Part shown: one piece after another, positions 1,303 to 20,657 of the stretch
Layout of the letters: each line of letters begins with the position of its first letter
Position numbering within the stretch: the first letter of the stretch is position 1
Assembly (NCBI GenBank): GCA_017625675.1
Contig: JAGAKK010000026.1
Span: 1-32,468, forward strand
DNA length: 32,468 nucleotides
Source of the DNA: Clostridia bacterium
Lineage (GTDB): Bacteria > Bacillota > Clostridia > UBA1212
Direction: 5' to 3'
Program-made: the position numbers and the translations under genes
Notes under the pieces: generated by a model
Seen by the model: the letters and a program-made list of their open reading frames with translations, nothing else
The model's database searches: none
What the model was told of the DNA's origin: nothing

Positions 1303-1500
1303 GTTGAGTCAGTTTGAGTCAGGGACCTCATTTGAGTCAGGGACCTGCCCCCTGACTCACGACAAAAAATGCGTTAATTATCAGCTTTTTGCATTTTTCA
1401 GTGGCGGTTTGGTTCCGTAACCGCCACTAACTAACCGCCACTGAAATGAGTCAGGTGGGGCAGGTCTCCGACTCAAAACCTCAAAAGGGCACTGACTCAT
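1303..1500. repeat. Palindromic intergenic repeat, copy 1 (MITE-like)
   Basis: A left 25-base hairpin lies at 1334-1358 (arms GAGTCAGGG and CCCTGACTC, 7-base loop). It is preceded by two tandem copies of TTTGAGTCAGGGACCT (1313-1328, 1331-1346). An A-rich core with TTAATTAT (1374-1381) follows. Then comes a strong inverted repeat with 14-base arms (1396-1409 and 1433-1446, containing AGTGGCGGTT/AACCGCCACT). The right hairpin (1448-1474) is the left one in opposite orientation, and a last CACTGACTCAT closes the element. Similar elements lie at 4566-4768 and 13294-13444. The stretch holds no credible gene. Confidence 0.8.
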
Positions 1501-4565: not shown

Positions 4566-4768
4566 CGAGTCAGAGTCCCCCGCCCTCACTTAATCGAACT
4601 CTCGCTCAAACACTTGACATAGTGCTGGCTCAGACGCCGACCCAAACACTGTTTCAAACAGCCACCGAAGTGCCACCCTAAAAACAAAAAATCCCATAAA
4701 TAAGGCATTTTTCACAGTGAGTCAGGGGGCAGGTCACTGACTCATTTTGAACTTGTGCGCTGACTCAT
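4566..4768. repeat. Palindromic intergenic repeat, copy 2 (inverted relative to copies 1 and 3)
   Basis: The 25-base hairpin unit lies at 4719-4743 (arms TGAGTCAG/CTGACTCA when one flanking base is included) with the AGGGGGCAGGTC side up, i.e. reversed relative to copies 1 and 3. An outlying CTGACTCAT (4760-4768) matches the outer repeat of copy 3. The core contains CCACCGAAGTGCCACCC (near 4662-4678), and a degenerate far end starts at GAGTCAG 4567-4573. No gene is seen between the feo promoter and the RNA module at 4831. Confidence 0.75.
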
Positions 4769-4956: not shown

Positions 4957-5844
4957 ATGGGCAAAAAGATCTTTTTTACCTATGACGAACAAATCGACCT
5001 GCTCAAGAATAAAAAACAACTAATTATCGAAGACCCGAAATTTGCAAAGAACACACTAAAAAAGCTTGGCTACTTCTCCCTTATCGGAGGATATAAAGAT
5101 TTGTTTAAGCACAAACCATCGGGAAATTACATAAGAGGTGTTACCTTTGAGGAAATCACCGCTTTTTATTATTTTGACGAAGAATTAAGGACTCTATTTT
5201 TCAAGTACATACTTCACGTAGAGCGTCATCTCAAAGCGATGTTATCTTACAGCTTCTGTGAAAAATACGGGGACAGTCAGAATGCATATTTAAACGTCTG
5301 CAATTTTAATTACAGCAAGAGAAATCAAAGCGACGTTCTGAGACTTGTTCAATCACTGAAAAAGGCCACCACACTTCCCAGCAACTACGCCTATATCACA
5401 CATTACGCAGTAGCATACAAAAACGTGCCTCTCTGGGTTACTACGAACACACTCACCTTCGGTCAGATCTCAAAATTATACCAATACACCACTTCAGACA
5501 TCCGTTCAAAAATCAGTATACAATACGCAAATATCTCCGAATCTCAATTACATAAATTCATACGTATCCTTGCGCGGTGCAGAAACGTTTGCGCCCACAA
5601 CGAGAGGCTTTATTCTTTTATCTCCAATGAAGCAATCCCTGATATGCCCTTGCACAAAAAGTTGTCAATAAAGAAAATCAAAGGCCAATTTACTGCAGGA
5701 AAAAGAGACCTCTTTGCCGTGGTAATCGCACTCAGATATTTAATCGGCAATGAAGAATTCAAAAAATGTGACAGGGGGCTGCCCCCTGTCACGTTTTTTC
5801 AAACTCAACAAACAACTTGCAAAGAGCAAAAAAATCCGATATAA
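4957..5844 (+). CDS. Abi_2 (AbiD/AbiF)-family HEPN protein, probable RNase toxin or abortive-infection effector
   Basis: A 295-aa soluble protein. The start at ATG 4957 is chosen because AGGAGGA (4944-4950) sits just before it; the frame runs open to 4867, but that part is the RNA module. The family is recognised from KNTLKKLGYFSLIGGYKDLF (31-50), TFEEITAFYYFDEELR (63-78), and the HEPN-type RNxxxH motif RNVCAH (R209-H214) in a stretch ending AHNERLYSF. HEPN proteins with R-x4-H are usually metal-independent RNases; members of this family give phage exclusion or act as toxins. It is controlled with the upstream RNA module. The last 25 or so residues are odd: residues 271-279 are encoded by a terminator-like palindrome and the frame ends inside the next gene's promoter, so the tail is probably not native. 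Confidence 0.88.
   Translation: MGKKIFFTYDEQIDLLKNKKQLIIEDPKFAKNTLKKLGYFSLIGGYKDLFKHKPSGNYIRGVTFEEITAFYYFDEELRTLFFKYILHVERHLKAMLSYSFCEKYGDSQNAYLNVCNFNYSKRNQSDVLRLVQSLKKATTLPSNYAYITHYAVAYKNVPLWVTTNTLTFGQISKLYQYTTSDIRSKISIQYANISESQLHKFIRILARCRNVCAHNERLYSFISNEAIPDMPLHKKLSIKKIKGQFTAGKRDLFAVVIALRYLIGNEEFKKCDRGLPPVTFFQTQQTTCKEQKNPI
5768..5799 (+). terminator. Palindrome/terminator inside the 3' end of the Abi_2 frame
   Basis: GTGACAGGGGGC (5768-5779) is followed by one T and its exact complement (5781-5792). The preceding A6 and following T6 tract make a classic, nearly symmetric bidirectional terminator. It resembles the repeat-family hairpins (GTCAGGGGGC / GCCCCCTGAC theme) but with GTGACAG rather than GAGTCAG arms. 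It lies in frame within the Abi_2 coding sequence. Confidence 0.7.
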
Positions 5845-7912: not shown

Positions 7913-7925
7913 TCTGTTTTTTATT

Positions 7926-8268
7926 AAGCAAGCAAGCCGTAAGCCGGGTTCTGTCGCGGATGATCATCTATCTCGGCGCAATATTACTACTGCGCTCCAG
8001 CCACCTCGGAAACTGTCGGGCCGACGTAACGTTTCACAGCGGTGTTGCTCCGGATGGGGTTTACACGGCCATTATGTCACCACAATGCCGGTGAGCTCTT
8101 ACCTCGCCTTTTCATCCTTACCTGCAAAAACGCAGGCGGTAATTTTCTGTTGCACTTTCCTTGAAGTCGCCTTCACAGGGTGTTACCCTGCACCCTTGCC
8201 CTATGGAGCCCGGACTTTCCTCAGACGGTCCCTTTCGGTTGCGCCCGCGATCATCTGGCTTACTTGCC
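7926..8268 (-). ncRNA. rnpB: RNase P RNA, A type
   Basis: This is the catalytic RNA of RNase P, which matures tRNA 5' ends. On the minus strand the conserved blocks occur in order: GAGGAAAGTCCGGGCTCC (CR I), AAGGGTGC..GGTAACACCC, AAGGAAAGTGCAACAGAAA, GAGGTAAGAGCTCACCG, the GTAAACCCC block, AGATAGATGATC and ACAGAACCCGGCTTAC. GTAAGCC near the 5' end can pair with GGCTTAC at the 3' end (P1). The layout is the ancestral A type, not the B type of Bacillales. The ends are approximate, set from the promoter and from P1. It lies between spoIIIAH and nrdR with its own promoter and terminator. Confidence 0.95.
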
Positions 8269-13293: not shown

Positions 13294-13444
13294 TTGAGTC
13301 CGCATGAGTCAGTCGCACGCATGAGTCAGTGACCTGCCCCCTGACTCAGTCAAAAAAACTCCTTAATTATCGTCTTTTTATTTTTTTGGTGGCACTTTAG
13401 TTCCGCTTTAAACCATCGAGTCAGTGAGGGAAGGCCACTGACTT
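13294..13444. repeat. Palindromic intergenic repeat, copy 3 (MITE-like)
   Basis: Same orientation and order as copy 1. Two outer ATGAGTCAG units lie to the left. The 25-base left hairpin is at 13323-13347. An A run is followed by TTAATTAT (13363-13370), placed exactly 15 bases after the hairpin as in copy 1. GGTGGCACTTTAGTTCCG begins near 13389, and the right, reversed hairpin is at 13418-13444 (GAGTCAGTGAGGG..CCACTGACTT). It lies immediately upstream of the spoIIIA operon and may have moved or carried its promoter. Confidence 0.8.
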
Positions 13445-13459
13445 AAAAGATTTTTATAT

Positions 13460-20526: not shown

Positions 20527-20657
20527 ATTATTTCCCGCGCCACCGAAGTGCCAACCCCACAAAAACCTTATTATTATCGTATTTTTTCATCAATGATATT
20601 TCTAAAAAAATATTTTCAGCCCCCGATTATTTCCCTGCGCCACTAAAGTGCCACCCC
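20527..20657. repeat. Two direct copies of a 32-base repeat core, 99 bases apart
   Basis: The two 32-base units are at 20527-20558 and 20626-20657. Both begin ATTATTTCCC and read on as GCGCCAC-4 bases-AAGTGCCA and end CCCC. They share the GCCAC..AAGTGCCA core with the palindromic repeats at 4566-4768 and 13294-13444 but lack GAGTCAG hairpins. Between them lies the A/T-rich CCTTATTATTATCG, also seen in the other copies. The second unit runs into the 3' end of ymdB. Confidence 0.75.

Follow-up and report, generated by a model that had tools for sequence, protein, structure and literature searches.

A repeat present three times in the window, which is the whole 32,468-nucleotide stretch analysed here (bases 1-32468 of contig 13 in a 1.65 Mb, 76% complete draft assembly of 88 contigs), belongs to a genuine high-copy REP-like family that is apparently private to its lineage, being absent from the related genomes searched. 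With a probability of roughly 0.7, its members are non-autonomous, REP/REPIN-like elements that a transposase of the group-1 RAYT (TIRYT) class has spread; we infer that the elements move, that they do so by a single-strand mechanism and that a RAYT acts on their hairpins, termed A and B. The family is of a known bacterial kind, and what is new is its variant architecture with a heterotypic A-K-R' design.

The initial annotation described three similar copies with a common plan, and an A hairpin, a core and a motif termed K were located in all three. Copy 1 comprises an A hairpin (TGAGTCAGGGACCTGCCCCCTGACTCA, positions 1333-1359), an A/T-rich core containing TTAATTAT (1360-1400) and K (GTGGCGGTTTGGTTCCG, 1401-1417), all on the plus strand, with a degenerate inverted A-like hairpin at its far end (about 1446-1475, minus strand). 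It is preceded by partial A half-units (GAGTCAG and TTTGAGTCAGGGACCT, 1306-1332, plus strand) of a kind that also lies ahead of several other copies. Copy 2 is on the minus strand, where the A hairpin (4718-4744), the core (4677-4717), K (GTGGCACTTCGGTGGCT, 4660-4676) and a strongly degenerate hairpin remnant (about 4567-4590) follow in the same order. Copy 3 returns to the plus strand with an A hairpin (13322-13348), a core with TTAATTAT (13349-13388) and K (GTGGCACTTTAGTTCCG, 13389-13405), and ends in a degenerate inverted A-like hairpin (about 13418-13446, minus strand). The pairwise identity of the three copies is 77-81% over 66-81 nt, and K starts 67-68 nt after the start of A.

Several details of the proposed plan were adjusted. 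The hairpin described as 25 bases is present, but it measures 27 nt and has 8-bp arms. The shared sequence placed at a 15-base spacing in copies 1 and 3, TTAATTAT, is found in both but starts 14 nt past the hairpin, and in copy 2 its position is occupied by TTATTTAT. A second hairpin in opposite orientation applies to the window only loosely, given its degenerate state there, although it is perfect in copies elsewhere in the genome.

Other members and fragments of the superfamily are also found in the window. The fourth member is a B-type hairpin (GTGACAGGGGGCTGCCCCCTGTCAC, 5768-5792, plus strand), and two K-like motifs without an A hairpin are located 100 nt apart on the minus strand (20538-20554 and 20638-20654), suggesting that K may be independent of A. 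Each of these K-like motifs is followed by a CGC(A/G)GGGAAATAAT-like sequence. The window also carries a bacterial RNase P RNA of class A (RF00010, 268.7 bits; 7925-8266, minus strand).

The expectation that three copies in the window imply many genome-wide was borne out. The 17-nt hairpin core CAGKGACCTGCCCCCTG has 108 exact matches in its own genome and is absent from all 37 relatives searched, while the 17-mer CAGGGACCTGCCCCCTG yields 176 genome matches with up to three mismatches compared to none for its reversed control, numbers that agree with the dozens to hundreds of copies of a short palindrome that define REP and REPIN sequences. The B form (ACAGNGACCTGCCCCCTGT, up to one mismatch) is found 25 times in the same genome and once each in 2 of 390 other genomes of the class, and these two outside matches look like chance. 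No match to the A form was found in viral contigs. Among the matches listed from a 17-mer search of 257 Gb of genome contigs, none has A or B arms; these matches are chance only, the pattern being too short for that volume.

A catalogue built from 264 kb of fetched stretches around the repeats contains 102 A, 31 B and 54 K features and 41 copies of a further palindrome, R (see below), so that all context statistics given here describe this biased sample. An additional self-complementary repeat family of ∼78 nt with 85-90% identity was noted at C3:1-98, C41:112739-112816, C48:4801-4880 and C75:2621-2698.

The A consensus is 27 nt long, TGAGTCAG[GT]GACCTGCCCCCTGACTCA, and 81 of the 102 A hairpins are identical to it. 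The arms of B differ from those of A yet remain complementary (GTGACAG/CTGTCAC). Motif K has the consensus GTGGCACTTyGGTksCG and is joined to A through a loosely conserved core of 40-43 nt that exists in two types (18 and 26 aligned sequences). This A-core-K unit recurs in 42 copies with a fixed A-to-K distance of 67-71 nt, which answers the concern that copies might share the hairpin and nothing else. Mean identity between copies is 96-97% for the hairpin, 77-84% for K and 59-64% for the core. Recognition of the hairpin would predict this pattern of an invariant hairpin beside a core that has diverged, although the invariance of A could alternatively reflect recent homogenisation.

Three kinds of right end are observed. 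The first is an inverted A located exactly 3 nt past K in five copies and 13 nt past K in two. In the second, seen for example on C13, C39, C48 and C78, an R-type hairpin such as GACCACGGCGTCAGACGCTGTGGTC begins directly at the end of K; C76 and C48 carry degenerate or partial versions. Some A-K elements thus end on the right in an R-type hairpin. In the third, which includes 18 clusters consisting of A and K only, nothing recognisable follows. Hairpin A also occurs solo, as short inverted pairs and as tandem triplets (C26 and C70), and the inverted pairs typical of REPINs are represented by A-A', A-K-A' and B-B' arrangements. When treated as single-stranded DNA, one A-K-A' copy folds into a long hairpin (z = -8.3). 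Inverted pairs of B are spaced ∼110-115 nt apart around an inner inverted pair, TGACAGGGGACA / TGTCCCCTGTCA (C5, C19, C24, C55, C56 and C73), and the GGGGACAC within this inner pair fits the motif GGGGWSAS.

The foot of the palindrome is TGAG in A, GTGA in B and GGAG or TGAG in R. None of the three carries the 5′ GT[AG]G or CGTC tag, which keeps the family out of the canonical GTAG and CGTC REP classes.

Two Y1 transposases are encoded in the assembly, on C41 and C55. The C41 gene is the only RAYT-type transposase found and scores 90.1 bits against NF047646 (cut-off 80). Its 255-amino-acid product has the features of the TIRYT/group-1 class, with a Pfam Y1_Tnp domain over residues 18-128, HVH and YIHRNP motifs (the latter being the class-2 Y---NP form) and a C-terminal extension. 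The gene is flanked by palindrome R (GAGCCACAGCGTCAGACGCTGTGGCTC and variants) at 65255-65281, 66096-66122 and 66257-66283, where the two upstream copies form a perfect inverted pair. This genome contains about 35-40 copies of R (about 35 sites at up to three mismatches), whereas no site was found in any of the order's 30 other genomes. R flanks the C41 RAYT, is multicopy here and is absent from those 30 genomes, and accordingly behaves like a REP cognate to this enzyme. The initial annotation recommended looking for a RAYT or IS transposase with ends matching the repeat; a RAYT gene is present, with flanking hairpins that match R rather than A.

Among the Y1 transposases of the 76% complete assembly, the class searched, no RAYT flanked by A or B was found. 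The C55 gene encodes an IS200-type TnpA with its own end hairpins, and it was rejected as a mobiliser of A or B on the ground that these ends are unrelated to either; the B hairpins adjoining this copy are probably coincidental. An ORF beginning MAKYSYEFKKKVVA that resembles an IS3-family insertion lies behind a TGTGGTGACCCCAAAAAGTTGGACC-type end, beside or inside an A-K element (C81, about 100-313).

RAYT relatives with 32-41% identity are present in the sister genus g10 and in genome G013. Most of those in g10 are located between inverted repeats containing GGGGAC[AG]G, although a clear hairpin of this kind is missing at some RAYT relatives. In one case (L225, genome G028) both flanks read TGGGACA-ggggacggttcct-TGTCCCA, sharing the 27-nt arm-interior-arm layout of the reverse strand of A, TGAGTCAG-ggggcaggtca-CTGACTCA. 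The sequence GGGGACAGRNMC occurs in 26-386 copies in seven g10 genomes and G013, compared to 0-8 in every other genome searched, and its reversed controls give 0-4 in those eight genomes except for 18 in G013. A RAYT relative is present in six of the eight. The other two, G024 and G029 of g10, carry 386 and 137 copies with no RAYT relative detected in the drafts, and thus may be read as a precedent for a repeat-rich draft without a RAYT gene. The TIRYT consensus GGGGWSAS (PMC3733652) is present in the g10 flanking repeats as GGGGACAG; the A interior, GGGGGCAG, is one position off, and R does not have it.

Taken together, copy number, intergenic bias (see below), the solo, tandem and inverted arrangements, the presence of R both at the RAYT and in composites, and the sister-genus hairpins give good support to a REP/RAYT system. 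Mobility would depend on A, an imperfect palindrome of 27 nt, and on its variant B; in many copies A is connected by the core to K, beyond which lies a second hairpin that is either inverted A or the different hairpin R'. The proposed enzyme is a RAYT-class HUH, Y1 transposase that most resembles group 1 (subclass 2.1, 'TIRYT'). Acting on single-stranded DNA, it would recognise, cut and rejoin the hairpin, so that elements are copied into further intergenic positions and no target-site duplication arises. The mobiliser of A and B may be the C41 RAYT or, more likely, a sibling that has been lost or is missing from the incomplete assembly. Several observations run against this model, namely that the sole RAYT found has R rather than A at its flanks, that the GT[AG]G foot typical of classical REPs is missing from A and that the A interior departs from GGGGWSAS at one position. 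Moreover, K and its fixed spacing are left unexplained by a simple REP model.

A possible though clearly less probable scenario is that the C41 RAYT itself mobilises A, B and R, such that A-K-R' units are REPINs with two different ends served by one enzyme. Its standing as the only RAYT in the assembly agrees with this scenario, as do the R-type right ends of several A-K units, the occurrence of R beside A elsewhere and the GAGyCA foot common to A and R. However, one RAYT is usually paired with one REP type in published systems (PMC6006769), and the interior of A is closer to the GGGGACxG repeats at other RAYTs than to R. Likewise, the assembly is incomplete, and the G024 and G029 drafts are rich in repeats without a detected RAYT.

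We regard as rather unlikely a related arrangement in which a group-1 RAYT moves heterotypic elements bounded by unrelated palindromes, with A at one end, its own R at the other and K as an internal recognition or guide site. Such elements would be REP transposons with two ends and not REPINs.

The elements are mostly extragenic, with 92 of the 102 A hairpins located outside predicted ORFs even though ORFs make up 83% of the sampled DNA. The A-K units reside mainly at gene starts, with 17 of 35 classifiable copies between divergent and 3 between convergent genes, counts that derive from a crude ORF caller and a biased sample and are uncorrected for intergenic length; this placement is a lead only. 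It could nevertheless be taken to mean that A-K units serve a regulatory or RNA function, for example as the site of a K-binding regulator or as a structured RNA, and were multiplied by duplication rather than carried as transposon passengers, as could the better conservation of K relative to the core and the existence of K-like sites without A. We consider this improbable. Divergent intergenic regions are longer, promoter-like sequence often lies outside the element, and mobility accounts better for the solo hairpins and tandems. The proposal of a structured RNA core also lacks support, in that the window copies have no Rfam match and the core shows neither a consensus fold nor covariation, its RNAalifold energy being equal to that of column-shuffled controls.

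The suggestion in the initial annotation of either a REP/RAYT-type system or a transposase-mobilised non-autonomous element resolves in favour of the former, and the label MITE is imprecise. A classical MITE, with terminal inverted repeats of a DDE-transposase element and a target-site duplication, is very improbable despite the near-perfect inverted ends around a noncoding core in some copies, given that inspection of seven A-K-A' copies by eye revealed no consistent, constant-length duplication, that A hairpins are mostly solo, in tandem or joined to a different hairpin, with the second end often absent, and that each end is itself a palindrome. A self-BLAST of the flanks for paralogous empty sites returned only family-to-family matches among the matches listed, and the relatives include no second genome of the same genus.

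The present REP-like family, probably spread by a group-1 RAYT, can be set beside three known systems. The REPINs and BIMEs of Proteobacteria (PMC3116915, PMC2817692) are likewise short extragenic palindromes at ∼100 copies per genome, arranged as inverted pairs around a variable spacer in a genome with a RAYT; our literature search for REPIN together with RAYT in Firmicutes found no report. In contrast to those elements, the present family has no GT[AG]G foot, carries K at a fixed distance and often uses another hairpin as its second end. It is also found mostly at gene starts by the crude ORF caller, whereas the ends of genes are the preferred location of classical REPs (PMC3733652). Hairpin ends and a common transposase superfamily link the repeats to IS200/IS605 elements and their hairpin-ended derivatives, and an IS200-type TnpA is present on C55, but the end hairpins of that copy are those unrelated to A or B. 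For annotation, the family accounts for an intergenic repeat that recurs in this lineage, as well as for several contig ends that stop at these repeats.

The closest match is the TIRYT/TIRtron system (group-1 RAYT, TnpAREP subclass 2.1; PMC3733652, PMC6006769), which has the same HUH and Y---NP Y1 transposase with a C-terminal extension, and the same inverted, partly self-complementary flanking repeats of moderate copy number that occur singly, as dimers or in groups. Its GGGGWSAS motif is matched by the sister-genus GGGGACAG and nearly so by the A interior. Group-1 RAYTs are widespread, and TIRYT has been equated with subclass 2.1 (PMC6006769); terminal inverted repeats have been reported for them, with no REP-like sequences or palindromes beside the genes (PMC3733652, PMC6006769). 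The present genome differs in having ∼100 copies of A without an A-flanked transposase, a different hairpin, R, at the transposase, and composites that join both. These ∼100 A hairpins, the ∼40 R hairpins located both beside the RAYT and elsewhere, and the A-R composites, along with the GGGGACAG repeats that track the RAYT in the sister genus, offer a concrete set of candidate substrates for group-1 RAYT recognition.
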